Position numbers and translations under genes: made by a program. Of a DNA stretch of 64,000 bases, positions 37,489 through 62,323 are shown piece after piece. The DNA lies in assembly GCA_019635875.1 (NCBI GenBank), contig JAHBYP010000007.1, positions 186,001-250,000 of the forward strand, written 5' to 3'. The notes beneath the pieces are model-generated. The model was given only the letters and a program-made list of their open reading frames with translations. It was not told the origin of the DNA and made no database searches. Origin of the DNA: Alphaproteobacteria bacterium. GTDB lineage: Bacteria > Pseudomonadota > Alphaproteobacteria > Reyranellales > Reyranellaceae. How positions within the stretch are numbered: position 1 is the first letter of the stretch; each line of letters begins with the position of its first letter.

Positions 37489-37553
37489 GGTTCGCCGATT
37501 CGTTGGCCGGCGGGAACCGGCTCAGAGGGACGGCGATTCTAGCACGCCTGCCG

Positions 37554-37607
37554 TCCCGAGCGCAGCGAGGGATCCAGAGTAGCCTGGATCCCTCGCTGCG
37601 CTCGGGA
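37554..37607. repeat. Perfect 23-bp inverted repeat (TCCCGAGCGCAGCGAGGGA type)
   Basis: The arms are 37554-37576 and 37585-37607 with an 8-base loop, located just past the cobT stop. This is the same repeat as at 42.8 and 58.2 kb. It may terminate the cobS-cobT transcript. Confidence 0.92.
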
Positions 37608-37613
37608 TGACAC

Positions 37614-42828: not shown

Positions 42829-42895
42829 CTGTCATCCCGAGCGCAGCGAGGGATCTACGGTTGGCCTGGATCCCTCGCTGCGCTCGGGATGACAG
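42829..42895. repeat. Perfect 27-bp inverted repeat (CTGTCATCCCGAGCGCAGCG type)
   Basis: The arms are 42829-42855 and 42869-42895 with a 13-base loop. They are identical to the arms of the 58.2 kb copy. The element is followed by AGAGTGAT, which is shared with the partial copy near 47.5 kb. Confidence 0.93.
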
Positions 42896-53698: not shown

Positions 53699-53823
53699 TA
53701 CCTTCCCCCGGAGGGGGAAGGTGGCGCGGAGCGACGGAAGGGGATGTCGAAGACGGACTGCGGCGTTCGTCTCCGGCATCCCCCTTCCGCCCTTCGGGCA
53801 CCTTCCCCCTCCGGGGGAAGGTA
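53699..53823. repeat. 125-bp intergenic inverted repeat with nested hairpins
   Basis: Perfect 25-bp arms (53699-53723 and 53799-53823) are each themselves a CCTTCCCCC/GGGGGAAGG hairpin. The inner part is also partly complementary (GAAGGGGATG with CATCCCCCTTCC). It lies between aroB and the CorC-like gene and ends 10 bases before that ATG, so it probably affects its expression. Confidence 0.9.
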
Positions 53824-56046: not shown

Positions 56047-57174
56047 ATGGCAGACCGAGTATTCGCACTTGGTGCCGATCAGAAGCTTGTCGAACTGACG
56101 CGTGCCGGGTTCGTCTCCGAGGATGTGTTCCAACGCATCCTTGCTGACCACCCGGCAATTTTGGGCGGTCCCGATGGTGGAACACCTCTGCTGATCCGGC
56201 GCGAACAGCCTATTCCCGACAATGCGGAGTCCGGAGGCCGATGGTCACTCGACCATCTGTACGTCGACCGCAGCGGCGTTCCGGTCCTGGTCGAGGTCAA
56301 GCGATCGACGGATACGCGTCTACGTCGGGAAGTCGTCGGCCAGATGCTGGACTACGCAGCGAACGGCGTCGTGTACTGGCGATTGGACGTGCTAGTTGAT
56401 GCGTTCGAGGAGACATGCAGAGCGCGGGGTGAGAACGCCGAGCAAGTGCTGAACGAGTTCCTCGACTCTTCCGTCTCGATCGAGGCGTTCTGGAAGACGG
56501 TCGAGGCCAATTTGCGCGCAGGTCATGTGCGCATGGTGTTTGTTGCTGATCATGTGCCGCCTGAGCTTCGCCGCATCGTCGAGTTCCTCAACGAACAGAT
56601 GCGGCCGGCGGAAGTGACGGCGATCCAGATCGCCCACTTCCAGGGTGCCGACGGCGGACGCGTCCTTGTGCCCCAAATTATCGGCGAGACTGAGCGCGCG
56701 ACGGCCGTCAAGAGCGTCGACGGCACGCGAACACCGATCTCTACCGACGAATGGATCGCGAAGCTCGCCGAAGCACATGGAGAGGATGCGGCGTCAGCCA
56801 CCCGGCGACTGGTCGAATGGCATATCGCACAGGGTGGCGACTGCGGGCCGACAGCGAGCCAGGATGCACTGTTCTTCCGGGTTAGAGGTGATGACGGACG
56901 TGATGCGTGGGCCTACTTCGTACGGCACGGAAGTGGCGGTCGACTTGAAGTGGCGCTGGGCTATCTGCAGAACCGGCCATTACTGAGGTCCGATGCGGCG
57001 CGGGGCGAAGTGGTGAATAGGCTGCGCTCGGTTCATGACATCGATATCCGGTTCTCAGGCAAGCTGACTGGATACCCCTCATTCCCTGTTTCAAGCCTCT
57101 TGTCCGAGGTGGCGTGGGCCGGGTTCACCGCCTTTGCAAAATGGCTCCTGGACAGGGCCCGTAGGGTGGACTGA
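56047..57174 (+). CDS. PD-(D/E)XK nuclease-like protein
   Basis: The 375-residue protein has a plausible PD-(D/E)XK core: D69 in WSLDHLYVD, E83 and K85 in VLVEVKRST, and Q99-x3-Y103 in VGQMLDYAA. A helical region and a second alpha/beta part (~230-375, with ATRRLVEWHIAQGG and LFFRVRGDDGRDAWAYFVRH) follow. Such folds occur in restriction, repair and defence nucleases. Its DNA is visibly less GC-rich than its neighbours and it interrupts an otherwise conserved neighbourhood, which suggests horizontal gain. No partner genes lie beside it. Activity and target are unknown. Confidence 0.7.
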   Translation: MADRVFALGADQKLVELTRAGFVSEDVFQRILADHPAILGGPDGGTPLLIRREQPIPDNAESGGRWSLDHLYVDRSGVPVLVEVKRSTDTRLRREVVGQMLDYAANGVVYWRLDVLVDAFEETCRARGENAEQVLNEFLDSSVSIEAFWKTVEANLRAGHVRMVFVADHVPPELRRIVEFLNEQMRPAEVTAIQIAHFQGADGGRVLVPQIIGETERATAVKSVDGTRTPISTDEWIAKLAEAHGEDAASATRRLVEWHIAQGGDCGPTASQDALFFRVRGDDGRDAWAYFVRHGSGGRLEVALGYLQNRPLLRSDAARGEVVNRLRSVHDIDIRFSGKLTGYPSFPVSSLLSEVAWAGFTAFAKWLLDRARRVD

Positions 57175-57262: not shown

Positions 57263-58228
57263 ATGACCCTGAATCGTCGGACGCTACTGGCGTCCACGCT
57301 TAGCGCGATGACTGCGGGCGGTGCTTTGGCACAGAGCAATTGGCCCAACAAGCCGGTGAAGCTGGTGGTCGGCTTCACGCCGGGCAGCGCCACCGACGTC
57401 TCGGGTCGGCTGTTTGCGCAGGTCTTCAGCGAGCTGTGGGGCCAGTCGGTGATCGTCGAGAACGTGCCGGGCAACAGCGGCGCCATCGGCGTCGACCGCG
57501 TCGCCAAGGCGGCGCCCGACGGCTACACCCTGATGTGGACGGGCAACGCCGCGATCACCATCCTGCCCAGCCTGCAGTCGCTGCCCTTCGATCCGATCAA
57601 GGACTTCGCCTACATCTCGACGACCCTGGTCACCGGCTCGGTGATCATGGCCAACAACGACCTGCCGGTGAAGACGCTGCCCGAGCTGATCGCCCACGCC
57701 AGGGCCAATCCAGGCAAGCTGAGCTACGGCAGCCCGGGCGTCGGCACGCCGCAGCACATCGCCGGCGAGCTGCTCGGCAAGCTGGCCGGCATCAAGATGG
57801 AGCACGTGCCCTATCGCGGCGCGCAGATGACCGACACCCTGAGCGGCGTCGTGCCGATCGCCATCCAGAACGCCGGCGCCTCGATGCCGCTGATCCGCGA
57901 TGGCCGCCTGCGCGGCCTGGCCGTGACCTCGGCCAAGCGCAGCGGCGCGGCGCCCGACCTGCCGACCGTGGCCGAGCAGGGCTTCCCCGGCTTCGAGGCG
58001 GCGTCGTGGTTCGCCATCATGGCGCCCGCCGGCACGCCGCAGCCGATCCTCGAGAAGGTGCGCCAGGCCGCGCTCAGGGCGCTGTCGGACAAGGAACTGC
58101 TGAAGAAGCTGGCCGCGCTGGGCCTCGATCCGCTCGGCAGCACCGGCGAGGAGACCAGGGCCGCGGTCGCGCGCGACATCCCGAAATGGGCGCAGGTCAT
58201 CAAGGATGCCGGCATCCCGCGCAATTGA
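57263..58228 (+). CDS. Tripartite tricarboxylate transporter substrate-binding protein (TctC/Bug family)
   Basis: The 321-residue product has an RR-containing signal peptide (MTLNRRTLLASTLSAMTAGG, cleavage after ALAQ). The Bug core follows: KLVVGFTPGSATDVSGR, VIVENVPGNSGAIGVDRVAKA, GKLSYGSPGVGTPQHIAGELL and VPYRGAQMTDTLSG. It is a periplasmic carboxylate receptor. This is the second Bug protein here and again without TctA/TctB. ATG 57263 is preferred over GTG 57251 because it gives a normal twin-arginine-type start. Confidence 0.93.
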   Translation: MTLNRRTLLASTLSAMTAGGALAQSNWPNKPVKLVVGFTPGSATDVSGRLFAQVFSELWGQSVIVENVPGNSGAIGVDRVAKAAPDGYTLMWTGNAAITILPSLQSLPFDPIKDFAYISTTLVTGSVIMANNDLPVKTLPELIAHARANPGKLSYGSPGVGTPQHIAGELLGKLAGIKMEHVPYRGAQMTDTLSGVVPIAIQNAGASMPLIRDGRLRGLAVTSAKRSGAAPDLPTVAEQGFPGFEAASWFAIMAPAGTPQPILEKVRQAALRALSDKELLKKLAALGLDPLGSTGEETRAAVARDIPKWAQVIKDAGIPRN

Positions 58229-58237
58229 GGCCGCGAC

Positions 58238-58306
58238 CTGTCATCCCGAGCGCAGCGAGGGATCTACGCGGTCGCCCGAGATCCCTCGCTGCGCTCGGGA
58301 TGACAG
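58238..58306. repeat. Perfect 27-bp inverted repeat (CTGTCATCCCGAGCGCAGCG type)
   Basis: The arms are 58238-58264 and 58280-58306 with a 15-base loop. They are identical to the arms at 42829-42895, 15 kb away, while the loops differ. Confidence 0.93.
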
Positions 58307-58313
58307 CAGGTTG

Positions 58314-58409
58314 CTAGAGCATCGAGCGTCAAAACGAACTCAGCCGTCTTCCTGGGAGCGCCGGCGCTCCCAAAGACGTGTGATTCCGCCTTTTCGTTCG
58401 TCGCTCTAG
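58314..58409. repeat. Nested palindrome between convergent genes
   Basis: A perfect 20-bp palindrome (TGGGAGCGCCGGCGCTCCCA, 58353-58372) is enclosed by CTAGAGC (58314-58320) and GCTCTAG (58403-58409), the latter overlapping the stop of the PNPOx gene. It may serve as a terminator for the minus-strand operon. Confidence 0.6.
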
Positions 58410-59038
58410 GCTTCTTTCTTGTCGGCGGCGGGCGGCACGCCCGGCGTCGGCTGGCGCGGATGGATGTGGTCCTTGAAGTCGGCGAAGCCCTTCCACGCCG
58501 GCTCGACCGGCGCCTGGCCCTCGACCGGTATGTAGATCGACGGTTCCGCCAGGCTGAGCCTGGGGATATAGCGCGGGCAATTGGGGAAGATGGCGCGCGC
58601 CTTCACCCGCACCACCATCTGTGCGCCGACGCATTGGGTCAGCAACGGATCCTCGCGATCGATGCTGGCCGTGCCGTTGACGCGCAGTCGGCGTGGCCGA
58701 TTGTGCAGGTCGATGAACAGCAGGCCGACGCCCGGATTGACCAGCAGGTTGCCCAGGCTCTTGAACTGGCCGTTGCCGTCGTAGTCGGGAAACGCCAGCT
58801 CGTCGTCGGCGGTGACGCGCACGAAGCCCGGCGCGCCGCCCTTGAACGAGCAGTCCGGCCGGCCCTCGGCATCGGCGGTGGCGAGGAAGAAGTAGATCGA
58901 CTCGCCGATGAAGGCGCGATCGGACTCGCTGAACGCCACCCGCGTCAGCTTCTCCTCGAGACGATCGGCGATGCGACGGCTGTCGAAGCGGTCCTGAAGC
59001 TCGCGGTTGCCGGCGTGGTACATGATCGAGTCGGACAT
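58406..59038 (-). CDS. Pyridoxamine 5'-phosphate oxidase family protein
   Basis: This 210-residue FMN-binding split-barrel protein has YFFLATADAEGRPDCSFKGG, FPDYDGNGQFKSLGNLLVNPGVGLLFID and RLRVNGTASID, typical of the general PNPOx-like family rather than PdxH. It could act on flavin-dependent oxidation of a small molecule; many relatives bind F420, FMN or heme. It is the third gene of a minus-strand operon with the Cys-rich exported protein and the serine hydrolase (gaps of 22-24 bases). Confidence 0.88.
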   Translation of the reverse strand: MSDSIMYHAGNRELQDRFDSRRIADRLEEKLTRVAFSESDRAFIGESIYFFLATADAEGRPDCSFKGGAPGFVRVTADDELAFPDYDGNGQFKSLGNLLVNPGVGLLFIDLHNRPRRLRVNGTASIDREDPLLTQCVGAQMVVRVKARAIFPNCPRYIPRLSLAEPSIYIPVEGQAPVEPAWKGFADFKDHIHPRQPTPGVPPAADKKEA

Positions 59039-59060
59039 CGGCGCCTCCCCCGGCGCGGCG

Positions 59061-60320
59061 TCACCTGATGATCGCTGCCTGCACCATGGTGCGGAACTGG
59101 TTGCGCAGGAAGATGCGGTCGTAGTCGTTGACCTGCACCATGTAGAGCGCCATCAGCCGGCGCTTCGGATCGATCCAGAACAGCGTGCCGGCATTGCCGG
59201 CCCAGCCGTACTCGCCCACGGAGCCGGGCAGCGCCGCCATGCCGGTGCTCTTGCGCACCTCGAAGCCGAGGCCGAAGCCCATCCCCGGCGGCCGGCCGGG
59301 CGCCATGCCGACATGGTCGGCGGTCATGAACTCGATGGTCTGCGCGCCCAGCAGGCGCCTGCCGTTGAATGTGCCGCCATTGGCGAGCATCAGCATGAAG
59401 CGCAGGTAGTCGTCGGTCGAGCCGACCAGCCCGCCGCCGCCCGACTCGAAGGCCGCCCTGACGCCGACGTCGAAACGCGGTGTCGGCGGCCGGTCCTTGC
59501 GGCTGACCGCGGGCTGCGCGGCGCGCGCCAGCTTCCCGGGCGGCAGCACGAAGGCGGTGTCGACCATGCCCAGCGGCCTGAAGATCGTCTCGTCGAGGGC
59601 CACGCCCAGGCTCTTGCCGGTGACGACCTCGACGATGCGGCCAAGGATGTCGGTCGACACGCCGTACTCCCAGCGCGTGCCAGGCGAGAAGCGCAGCGGC
59701 AGCTTCGACACCTGCCTGGCGAACTCCGCGTTGTCGACGGTGCGATCGCCGATCCTCGCCTCGCGATAGGCCTTGTTGACCAGCGAGTCGCCGCGCGTGC
59801 CGTAGATCAGCCCCGAGGTGTGGCGCAGCAGGTCCTGCACCGTCATTTCCCGCTGCGCCGCCGCCAGCTCGAGCAACGGCTTGCCGTCGGTGCCCGTCTT
59901 CTCGACACCGACCTTCATCTCGGCGAACTCCGGGATGTAGCGCGAGACCGGATCGCCGATCTGCATCCTGCCCTGCTCGACCAGCATCATGATGGCGACG
60001 CTGACGATCGGCTTGGTCATGGAGTAGATGCGGAACAGCGAATCCGGCTTCAGCGGCTCGCCCTTGTCGCGGTCGCGCATGCCCAGCACGCGGTGCCATG
60101 CGACCTTGCCGTCGCGCACCACCAGCATGATCGCACCCGGCAGCAGCCCGTTCTCGATATGACCACGCGTCACCGCCTCGAGCCGGACAAGCTGCTCGCC
60201 CGACAGGCCGACATCCTCGGGCCTGGTTGCCGAGGGCAGCAGCGTCTCGGCGCTGGCCTGCGCGATCGGCGTGAACGCCACCCATGCGGCGAACATCGCC
60301 GCCTTCAACGACCTCGACAT
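59061..60320 (-). CDS. Exported serine hydrolase (class C beta-lactamase-like)
   Basis: The 419-residue product has a signal peptide (FAAWVAFTPIAQASA). The beta-lactamase/penicillin-binding fold has the catalytic SxxK at S100-K103 (IYSMTKP) and a Tyr motif in RWEYGVSTDILG. The third motif region is EYGWAGNAGTLFWIDP, where the usual HxG is WAG. Relatives are esterases, D-aminopeptidases or lactone hydrolases; beta-lactam resistance is not implied. It follows the Cys-rich gene by 24 bases and may act with it in the periplasm. Confidence 0.9.
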   Translation of the reverse strand: MSRSLKAAMFAAWVAFTPIAQASAETLLPSATRPEDVGLSGEQLVRLEAVTRGHIENGLLPGAIMLVVRDGKVAWHRVLGMRDRDKGEPLKPDSLFRIYSMTKPIVSVAIMMLVEQGRMQIGDPVSRYIPEFAEMKVGVEKTGTDGKPLLELAAAQREMTVQDLLRHTSGLIYGTRGDSLVNKAYREARIGDRTVDNAEFARQVSKLPLRFSPGTRWEYGVSTDILGRIVEVVTGKSLGVALDETIFRPLGMVDTAFVLPPGKLARAAQPAVSRKDRPPTPRFDVGVRAAFESGGGGLVGSTDDYLRFMLMLANGGTFNGRRLLGAQTIEFMTADHVGMAPGRPPGMGFGLGFEVRKSTGMAALPGSVGEYGWAGNAGTLFWIDPKRRLMALYMVQVNDYDRIFLRNQFRTMVQAAIIR

Positions 60321-60344
60321 GGTTGTCCCCGGGGCTGCCGCTTC

Positions 60345-60908
60345 CTACTCGAGCTTGTTCTGGATGCGCGACGGCTGGTTGTACGGAATCTGCGCCGTGC
60401 GGCCGATGCCGACGGTGGCGCAGCCACCGTCCAGCGAGCAGGCCTTGTTCTTCGAGCAGATCGTGCCGCCGCCGCAATCCTGGTAGTAGGTCGTGTTCAT
60501 GCAGCGGCCGGCGCTGCTGCAGATGCGTCCCTGCTCGCAGCGCCCGTCGCCGCAGACCGGCCCGGTGCGCGGCCCGCCGCCGGTGCAATTGCCGGTGTTG
60601 GTGCAGGTCGAGCCGGGCGGGCAGATGCCGCCTGTGGTGCAGTCCGAATAGCCGATCGGCACGCAGGAGCCCGCCCGGTACTTGTGCTCGCGGAAGCCCG
60701 GCTCGCACCAGCTGCCGGTCGAGGTGCGCGTGCTGCCCGGCGGCGTGTTCACCCGCTCGCCGCACATATCGCCCTTGAGGCAGACATTGCCCTTCGGGCA
60801 GTACTTGCCGTTGCGGCAATCGACCTGCGCGAGGGCCGATGTCGCAAGGACGGCGGCGGCGATCAGCGCCACCAGGGTGGCTATTGCCCAGCGTGCGATT
60901 GCAGGCAT
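60345..60908 (-). CDS. Small exported cysteine-rich protein (EGF/knottin-like repeats)
   Basis: The 187-residue product has a signal peptide (WAIATLVALIAAAVLATSALA). The mature chain of about 160 residues contains 18 cysteines in repeated short loops such as CPPGSTCTNTGNCTGG, CGDGRCEQGRICSSAGRC and CSKNKACSLDGGC. This pattern looks like EGF- or knottin-type disulfide-rich modules, uncommon in bacteria. GGAGGAG seven bases before ATG 60908 fixes the start. It leads an operon with a serine hydrolase and a PNPOx protein. Its function is unknown; a secreted adhesin, inhibitor or envelope protein are options. Confidence 0.78.
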   Translation of the reverse strand: MPAIARWAIATLVALIAAAVLATSALAQVDCRNGKYCPKGNVCLKGDMCGERVNTPPGSTRTSTGSWCEPGFREHKYRAGSCVPIGYSDCTTGGICPPGSTCTNTGNCTGGGPRTGPVCGDGRCEQGRICSSAGRCMNTTYYQDCGGGTICSKNKACSLDGGCATVGIGRTAQIPYNQPSRIQNKLE

Positions 60909-60975
60909 CTGTGTTGCTCCTCCGACGGCGTTCCCCCTGCGTGGCCCCCGGGCGCAGCGTAGCAAGGGAATCCGC

Positions 60976-61365
60976 TCAGCGCACCAGCGCGACGAAGATC
61001 AGGATCATGCCGACATAGGAGACCAGGAAGGCGCCTGTGCGCAGCCAAGGTACGCCGGCGATATAGGCGCCGCCATGCGCGACGCGGCCCCAGAAGAAGA
61101 GCTGCGCGCCGATCGCCGTGCCCTGGCCGAACTTGTTGGTGACCGCGGCGACGATGATCAGCGCGGCGAAGGGAACCAGGTTCTCGACCATGTTGGCATG
61201 GGCGCGCCGGGCACGGCCGACCCATCCCTCCAGCGCCGGGAAGTCCTCGCGGTTGCCGGCCATGACCGGCAGGCCGAGCTTCAGCACCAGGGCGAGGGAG
61301 TAGGGCAGGGTGAGAGCCAGGCAGAGTGCGGCGCTCAATGCCAGAAACAGCAACTCGATCTGCAT
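60976..61365 (-). CDS. MAPEG family protein
   Basis: The 129-residue protein has four hydrophobic helices. ELLFLALSAALCLALTLPYSLALV forms the first, and VGRARRAHANMVENLVPFAALIIVA carries the conserved basic/Asn segment that binds glutathione in MAPEG enzymes. Bacterial MAPEG proteins are inner-membrane glutathione transferases/peroxidases or of unknown activity. ATG 61365 is preceded by GAGGAGG. It lies 67 bases upstream of the Cys-rich gene on the same strand, and is divergent from the EamA permease. Confidence 0.9.
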   Translation of the reverse strand: MQIELLFLALSAALCLALTLPYSLALVLKLGLPVMAGNREDFPALEGWVGRARRAHANMVENLVPFAALIIVAAVTNKFGQGTAIGAQLFFWGRVAHGGAYIAGVPWLRTGAFLVSYVGMILIFVALVR

Positions 61366-61462
61366 CGCCAGGTCCTCCTCGGTGTCGTGACGCGAAGTCT
61401 CGCCCCGGGACCCCGCGCGCGCAATCGGCCTGACGCCATCCGGCGTGATACAAGGCGCGCCG

Positions 61463-62323
61463 ATGTCGGCTCCCCCCTCGACGACAAGCCCGGTGCGCAC
61501 CGGTATCCTCTGCCTCGCTTCGGGCGCGGCGGCGTTCTCGATGTTCGACGCGCTCAACAAGGGCATGTCGGACTCGCTGCCGCTGGTGCAGCGCCTTTGG
61601 GTCTACTACCTCGCCTTCGCCGCCGTCATGGCGCTGGCGGTATGGCGGCGCGGCGATCGCGGCGCCTGGCGCTCGGCGCGGCCCGGCCTGCAGGTCGCGC
61701 GTGCGCTGGTGCTGGTGGTCGAGACCGGCCTGTTCGCCGCCAGCCTGCGCTACATCCAGCTCGCCGACATGCAGGCGGTGGCGGCCGCTTCGCCGCTCTT
61801 CGTGCTGGCGCTGTCGGCGCCGGCGCTGGGCGAGCCGGTGGCGCGCCGCGCCTGGATCGCCGTGGCGCTGGGTTTCGTCGGCGTGCTGGTCGTGGTGCGG
61901 CCGGGCCTGCGCGAGCTGAACCTCGGCTACGTGCTGGTGCTGATCGGCGCGGCGCTGTGGGCGCTCTACCAGATCCTGCTGCGCATTGTCGGCCGCGACG
62001 ATCCGCCGTCGACCACGGCGCTGTGGACGGCATTGGCGGGCGCGGCGGCGCTGACCTGCGTCGGGCCGTTCTTCTGGAGCTGGCCGGACGCCACAGGCTG
62101 GCTGATGCTGGCCGGGCTGGCCGCCTGCGGCACCCTGGGCCACGTGCTCTATTCGATCGCCTTCCGCCTGGCGCCGGCGGCGATCCTGCAGCCCTTCGGC
62201 TATCTCAACCTGGTTTTCGCCATCGTCTGGGGCTGGCTGATCTTCGCCCAGTTCCCCGACCTTTGGACCATCGCCGGCGCGGCCCTGATCGTCGTCGCCG
62301 GCATCGTCGCGCTGCGCGCCTGA
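61463..62323 (+). CDS. DMT family (EamA) transporter
   Basis: The 286-residue protein has ten predicted helices in two EamA repeats, e.g. ALVLVVETGLFAASLRYIQLADMQAVAAASPLFVLAL and a second repeat with AFRLAPAAILQPFGYLNLVFAIVWGWLIF. These proteins export metabolites, amino acids or drugs across the inner membrane. ATG 61463 is used; GTG 61445 upstream adds six residues. It ends three bases before the bolA stop on the other strand. Confidence 0.9.
   Translation: MSAPPSTTSPVRTGILCLASGAAAFSMFDALNKGMSDSLPLVQRLWVYYLAFAAVMALAVWRRGDRGAWRSARPGLQVARALVLVVETGLFAASLRYIQLADMQAVAAASPLFVLALSAPALGEPVARRAWIAVALGFVGVLVVVRPGLRELNLGYVLVLIGAALWALYQILLRIVGRDDPPSTTALWTALAGAAALTCVGPFFWSWPDATGWLMLAGLAACGTLGHVLYSIAFRLAPAAILQPFGYLNLVFAIVWGWLIFAQFPDLWTIAGAALIVVAGIVALRA

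Follow-up and report, generated by a model that had tools for sequence, protein, structure and literature searches.

A new family of exported-looking proteins with tandem four-cysteine modules in Reyranellaceae, with a hint of lectin ancestry

The window considered here is a stretch of 64,000 nucleotides from an alphaproteobacterium of the family Reyranellaceae (assembly GCA_019635875.1, contig JAHBYP010000007.1, positions 186,001 to 250,000 of the forward strand); the genome assembly comprises 17 contigs and 6.2 Mb. Towards the end of the window, three open reading frames (ORFs) follow one another on the minus strand, encoding a cysteine-rich protein (CYS), a serine hydrolase (HYD), and a flavoprotein (PNPOx), with spacers of 24 and 22 bases between CYS and HYD and between HYD and PNPOx, respectively (Table 1). 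An original prediction, made from the DNA letters alone, had drawn attention to this set, and all three ORFs were found as it described them. CYS represents a new, unnamed family of exported-looking proteins that are built of four-cysteine modules in tandem and in which a lectin ancestry is hinted at.

The cysteine plan of CYS and its gene run

The 18 cysteines of CYS, the number originally counted, lie at residues 31-37-43-49, 68, 82, 90-96-102-108, 119-124-130-136, and 145-151-157-163. The layout is thus one of four C-x5-C-x5-C-x5-C modules and two extra cysteines, with modules 1, 2, and 4 exact and module 3 spaced 4-5-5. This spacing exceeds chance. When the mature protein was shuffled 20000 times, 3 shuffles reached the three exact matches of CYS, and among 300 stop-to-stop stretches of at least 100 aa in the window, CYS alone contained any match to the pattern. 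All 18 cysteines are retained with near-fixed spacing in 18 of 18 full homologues, a few of which carry one to three additional cysteines outside the core. The N-terminus, read by eye, resembles a signal peptide, in keeping with the secretion first proposed; CYS is therefore probably exported and would act outside the cytoplasm. Nine disulfides may be expected, paired 1-3 and 2-4 within each module by analogy with scytovirin, a cyanobacterial lectin with this pairing.

The modules were also compared with each other after removal of the cysteines, using only rows of regular spacing (18, 12, 16, and 17 of 18 for modules 1 to 4). Of 5000 column shuffles, the observed score was reached by 11 for modules 1-2, 3 for 1-4, 71 for 1-3, 146 for 2-4, and 147 for 2-3; the pair 3-4, where 1800 shuffles reached it, is unsupported. 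Because the modules resemble each other outside the cysteines and are regularly spaced, CYS is better described as a tandem repeat protein than as the array of epidermal growth factor (EGF) or knottin type that had been suggested. Both of those families were rejected: CYS had no match to Pfam or NCBIfam at E<=1, and its 18 homologues touched five Pfam families at that threshold, none of them EGF or knottin. Disulfide-rich tandem modules are familiar from animals and plants; to our knowledge they are little catalogued in bacteria.

A fourth gene, encoding a MAPEG-family membrane protein, precedes CYS by 67 bases and has the same orientation. The order MAPEG-CYS-HYD-PNPOx was found in each of the three assemblies of the genus in which the locus is present (the window and two others, labelled L030 and L031). 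In the latter two the CYS-HYD gap is 15 (assuming a GTG start) and 16 bases, and HYD and PNPOx are separated by a 4-base overlap or an 18-base gap. The recurrence of this order indicates that the four genes probably form one operon and are co-transcribed. The gaps inside the three-gene stretch from CYS to PNPOx are too short for ordinary promoters, which speaks against an independent promoter for each gene, the observation that the original prediction had set against its own proposal. A promoter and terminator scan of 58200-61700 found neither kind of signal, a null that says little here. The claim of a tight operon led by the cysteine-rich gene thus stands as regards tightness, and the run is conserved, but since MAPEG is co-directional and kept in the block, CYS heads only the last three genes and may be gene 2 of 4. 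Among the loci examined, the operon is likely real but restricted to the genus. In the fourth genome of the genus, which is 67% complete, two CYS copies were found elsewhere; the best HYD match there had 47% identity, and PNPOx had no match at E<=1e-50.

Table 1. Positions in the window of the genes of the run and of the parts of CYS
Feature	Position	Strand	Basis
CYS, 187 aa, 18 Cys, exported-looking	60345..60908	-	ORF and Cys positions
HYD, 419 aa, beta-lactamase-fold serine hydrolase, exported-looking by eye	59061..60320	-	PF00144, E 4.7e-71; SMTK
PNPOx, 210 aa, PPOX-type flavoprotein	58406..59038	-	PF01243, E 5.2e-15
MAPEG-family membrane protein	60976..61365	-	PF01124, E 4.1e-20 (on longer ORF); synteny; start at Met
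CYS, signal-peptide-like N-terminus, residues 1-28 (...TSALAQ); C31 not preceded by a lipobox	60825..60908	-	By eye from translation; helix 3-25 in model
CYS, module 1, C31-C49 (5-5-5)	60762..60818	-	Cys spacing
CYS, central segment, C68 and C82, aromatic residue preceding C68, P-G following	60663..60707	-	Cys positions, alignment
CYS, module 2, C90-C108 (5-5-5)	60585..60641	-	Cys spacing
CYS, module 3, C119-C136 (4-5-5), GP..C....C.....CSS.G.C, scytovirin-like part	60501..60554	-	Cys spacing, profile comparison
CYS, module 4, C145-C163 (5-5-5)	60420..60476	-	Cys spacing

Distribution of CYS and its separation from HYD and PNPOx

CYS can be taken as a real gene because homologues occur in 16 of the 75 family genomes, the ratio of nonsynonymous to synonymous substitution (dN/dS) among the three syntenic copies is 0.21-0.54, and the 18 cysteines are kept in every full homologue. 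By genus, the family profile detected CYS in 4/4 genomes of the window's genus, 1/4 of the genus labelled g4, and 11/65 of g3 (one a fragment), with 0/1 in both g2 and g5; three genomes hold two copies, and genome G069 gave a weak match (E 0.005). Wider searches, which scored 8 to 20 first-look candidates per genome and so may miss distant relatives, returned little. In 385 genomes of the class, the single protein and the profile gave two matches only, both within the family, and in 398 genomes of the phylum five matches were obtained at E<=0.01, namely the window's own, L134, and L135-L137; the last three were rejected as relatives and read as chance reading frames. L134, from another alphaproteobacterial family, encodes an exported-looking protein (L134:1324-2274, plus strand) of three four-cysteine modules followed by a coiled-coil-like tail with weak Pfam coiled-coil matches, and reads as a true relative, the sole convincing one found outside the family. 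With the L134 sequence included among the queries, a module profile run against 347 class genomes gave two family members and three places read as chance, and a search of 40 genomes of L134's own family gave L134 itself and one such place.

A phage or plasmid origin of CYS was considered and rejected (no match at E<=0.01 in phage and plasmid collections), and of 27 stretches with the cysteine pattern in viral contigs none was confirmed. A defence role was likewise set aside, CYS, HYD, and PNPOx having no PADLOC match at E<=0.01. Among open-licence PMC papers, none turned up on cysteine-rich Reyranella proteins or on alphaproteobacterial granulin domains, and the papers listed by wider searches on granulins, cysteine repeats, and scytovirin homologues gave no account of the CYS family.

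Among the three syntenic copies, nonsynonymous divergence (dN) was 0.09-0.28 for CYS, 0.09-0.18 for HYD, 0.04-0.05 for PNPOx, and 0.04-0.06 for MAPEG. In the two pairs involving the window, CYS was the most divergent (0.27-0.28; HYD 0.12-0.18, PNPOx about 0.05); in the third pair CYS (0.089) was close to HYD (0.094). Rapid change is commonplace among surface proteins, in line with the envelope reading favoured below. By reading of the surroundings, the homologues occupy about eleven distinct genomic contexts, and the CYS tree is weakly resolved, with the genus groups not clustered. The many contexts and the unclustered genus groups, together with the presence of CYS in so few of the family's genomes and the three two-copy genomes, would suit an accessory gene without a settled function, wandering by duplication and loss, whose neighbours carry no meaning. 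We regard that explanation as unlikely, as the invariance of all 18 cysteines and a dN/dS of less than 1 show that the protein is under selection.

HYD and PNPOx were compared with curated family models. HYD scored 240 bits against PF00144 (cut-off 27), and its SxxK motif, SMTK, lies at residue 100. Its best NCBIfam match was AcmB, at 170 bits versus a cut-off of 550, and HYD fell below the cut-off of each model among the matches listed (25 of 42); it is a plain member of the PF00144 serine hydrolases. PNPOx scored 56.3 bits against PF01243 (cut-off 28.1) and 96 bits against the PPOX flavoprotein subfamily model TIGR04025, under the curated cut-off of 170.

It had been proposed that CYS is a disulfide-rich partner of the hydrolase. 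In its fullest form this would make CYS a dedicated inhibitor, chaperone, or targeting subunit of HYD, and the operon one functional system with PNPOx. The close co-directional spacing and the block kept in the genus agree with such a partnership, as might L032, from another genus, where a different PNPOx-family gene (L032:8557-8982, minus strand) stands just upstream of a CYS homologue, an adjacency that possibly arose by chance. Comparison of the loci argues the other way. The original prediction had called for a survey of homologues and their neighbours, and CYS and HYD proved adjacent in the three genus assemblies but in none of the other 15 full CYS homologues, on whose retrieved stretches (some ending early at contig ends) neither HYD nor PNPOx was matched by tblastn at E<=1e-5. 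For the enzymes, 30 HYD loci (from 74 positive genomes) and 30 PNPOx loci (from 44) were examined, 27 of each outside the genus; within up to 1.5 kb, 27/27 HYD loci had neither CYS nor PNPOx, and 27/27 PNPOx loci had neither CYS nor HYD. All 16 CYS-positive genomes do contain a HYD relative, but this co-occurrence is uninformative because such relatives, at E<=1e-60, are present in 74 of 75 family genomes, with or without CYS, compared with 16 of 75 for CYS itself. As the three genes stand apart at the loci examined outside the genus, the partner idea is weak, and we consider it improbable. HYD and PNPOx are best read as ordinary enzymes that are located elsewhere in relatives and would not be obligatory partners of CYS.

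Envelope context, remote likeness, and possible glycan binding

The reading that we favour is that CYS binds glycans of the envelope or the extracellular space and is co-transcribed with HYD and PNPOx without being tied to them; we would give it roughly 0.38, and put glycan binding itself, drawn from weak likeness and envelope context, at a similar level. Five g3 homologues (L038, L039, L041, L042, and L044) lie next to a gene run in divergent orientation. In L042 this run comprises genes for an SLT_2 transglycosylase, a DPBB_1 plus SPOR protein, and a Peptidase_S11 plus PBP5_C protein (a PBP5-type carboxypeptidase), and the runs in the other four are homologous to it by clustering and by eye; a Peptidase_M23 gene lies on the opposite side of CYS in L042, with a look-alike in L039. 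In L043 (7090-8286, minus strand) a CYS homologue is apparently fused to a PG_binding_1 domain (E 2e-12) placed behind the cysteine region; the domain was seen in 1 of 18 homologues, identified as L043 by its sequence. The tail of this protein, coiled-coil-like in appearance, resembles part of an adjoining MORN-repeat gene. The five peptidoglycan-adjacent copies form one supported clade in the tree, so the envelope link of CYS consists of one clade and one fusion.

The closest remote likeness was to scytovirin (PDB 2jmv, 2qsk, 2qt4), which binds oligomannose and shares with CYS the C-x5-C-x5-C-x5-C repeats, the GP..C....C.....CSS.G.C motif, and a small, tandem, disulfide-held build. A profile of modules 3-4 searched against PDB sequences gave scytovirin as its sole match at E<=10, with E 0.032 over both repeats (0.81 and 5 singly). 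For a mixed module profile scytovirin also ranked first (E 0.45), on a par with a peptide toxin (E 0.46). Two decoy profiles, in which the cysteine columns were kept and the others shuffled, had no PDB match at E<=10. By hhalign, the alignment to scytovirin had a probability of 30 and P 0.00054 over 21 columns. Likeness beyond the cysteines was equalled in 169 of 10000 shuffles for module 3 and 240 for module 1. The two proteins differ in their architecture: excerpts of PMC8004682 describe scytovirin as two domains of 90% identity joined by an inter-domain disulfide, each with two intra-domain disulfides and three aromatic sugar-binding residues, whereas CYS has four divergent modules and the central C68/C82 segment. 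The same excerpts describe scytovirin as an antiviral lectin of oligomannose specificity, its fold termed novel and its sequence likened to hevein-like proteins.

An AlphaFold2 model of CYS (mean predicted local distance difference test score, pLDDT, 86.7; predicted template modelling score, pTM, 0.64) shows, with fair confidence, short strands arranged in a chain. When modules 3-4 were searched with Foldseek, hevein-type N-acetylglucosamine lectins occupied rows 1, 5, and 6 at E 1.1, 4.7, and 4.7, which is not significant. Such chitin-binding lectins (pokeweed lectin D2, Urtica agglutinin) are, like CYS, small disulfide folds. Their cysteine pattern includes an adjacent pair, and in this they differ from CYS, which has none and has no Pfam match at E<=1.

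Several observations weigh against glycan binding. The five peptidoglycan neighbourhoods, belonging to a single clade, count once, and the remaining neighbours scanned (amidase, amidohydrolase, major facilitator superfamily transporter, adenylate cyclase, riboflavin genes, and others) have no common or envelope theme. The match to scytovirin falls short of customary significance and comes mostly from module 3; for modules 2 and 4 the likeness to scytovirin does not extend past the cysteines (1185 and 5120 of 10000 shuffles), the relative L134 gave no match to it at E<=10, and the profile of the whole protein found nothing in the PDB at that threshold, granulin included. With Foldseek, the model matched nothing in the PDB or among viral models at E<=0.001 (best viral E 0.008), chains of low-density-lipoprotein-receptor type recur in the lists as often as lectins, and modules 3-4 alone gave 0/24 chains with Z>=2 on structural alignment. 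Scytovirin is, moreover, said not to bind chitin in the excerpts of PMC8004682. A second structural comparison (VIA) pointed elsewhere, to zebrafish granulin AaE (6cku), with Z 5.2 and a root mean square deviation of 2.6 over 52 residues (model 59-110).

Granulin AaE, which an excerpt of PMC7463432 describes as a stack of four beta-hairpins, was the only chain with Z>=2 among the 184 aligned, and granulins and half-granulins share with CYS a CPxGxxC turn ahead of the final cysteine (P 0.004 by hhalign over 13 columns). On these grounds CYS might be a granulin-like hairpin stack sent out against protist or other eukaryotic neighbours. The hhalign probability, however, is 8.5, and the tool itself rates a Z of 5 as middling. 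The letters of granulin (PF00396) contain CC pairs, whereas CYS contains none and hence lacks the 12-cysteine motif given for granulin in the part of PMC4527844 concerned; nor was Pfam granulin matched at E<=1. We judge this explanation very improbable. As to a life of Reyranella with amoebae or ciliates, an excerpt of PMC7664032 on cooling towers places it among taxa linked to ciliates and to Legionella, a connection too weak to be used here.

Alternatively, CYS could be a periplasmic or surface protein with a structural or redox task (a disulfide-stabilised spacer, a thiol buffer, or a metal binder) and no glycan binding. The even number of invariant cysteines fits such a task, as does the composition of the 37 invariant alignment columns, 29 of which are Cys, Gly, or Pro; the long tails of L043 and L134, coiled-coil-like by eye and in L134 by weak Pfam matches, would also suit a spacer. 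On the other side, the CYS spacing contains no CxxC or CxC pairs, which are typical of metal or redox centres, and patchy occurrence in many genomic places fits poorly with a housekeeping part. We hold this account to be rather unlikely.

If CYS is a glycan binder, the exported and oxidised protein would form a scaffold in which four small hairpin modules make a stiff chain outside the cytoplasm. It would bind glycans of the envelope or of an encountered surface, such as peptidoglycan or exopolysaccharide, in the manner of a small multivalent lectin, and in this genus its gene stands in the MAPEG-CYS-HYD-PNPOx run, where it is probably co-transcribed. The surface-interaction role once offered as the other option beside a hydrolase partnership is thus favoured, on grounds other than that partnership. 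A broader and more doubtful proposal treats the C-x5-C-x5-C-x5-C module as a lectin unit of bacteria that scytovirin also contains. Exported proteins of Alphaproteobacteria and cyanobacteria would then carry two to four copies of it, sometimes joined to peptidoglycan-binding domains, and would constitute an unrecognised family of disulfide-held glycan binders. The interest of the CYS family lies in its position outside Pfam and NCBIfam models, its strict cysteine plan, and the hint of kinship with scytovirin; should glycan binding hold true, CYS would offer a small, stable scaffold, and the idea can be tested directly.

Other features of the window

Between the convergent ends of PNPOx and a TctC gene lies a perfect 28-base inverted repeat with a 13-base loop (58238-58306). 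A 24-base core of this repeat occurs in seven copies in the window, allowing up to 2 mismatches, and is paired also at 37552-37609 and 42833-42891. Because the core recurs in this way, the repeat looks like a dispersed element, akin to repetitive extragenic palindromic (REP) sequences or miniature inverted-repeat transposable elements (MITEs); at 58238-58306 it perhaps serves as a two-way terminator.

On the plus strand, a 375-aa gene at 56047-57174 has a match to PDC-S11, one of the candidate defence families of PADLOC (E 5.2e-14). It looks recently inserted, since the genes that flank it are nearly adjacent in the two other assemblies of the genus. The segment 53744-53830, the translated start of a 457-aa ORF at 53744, has copies of up to 92% identity at unrelated places in L034, L045, and L048. 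This start region therefore appears to be a dispersed repeat, and the true start of the ORF probably lies downstream.

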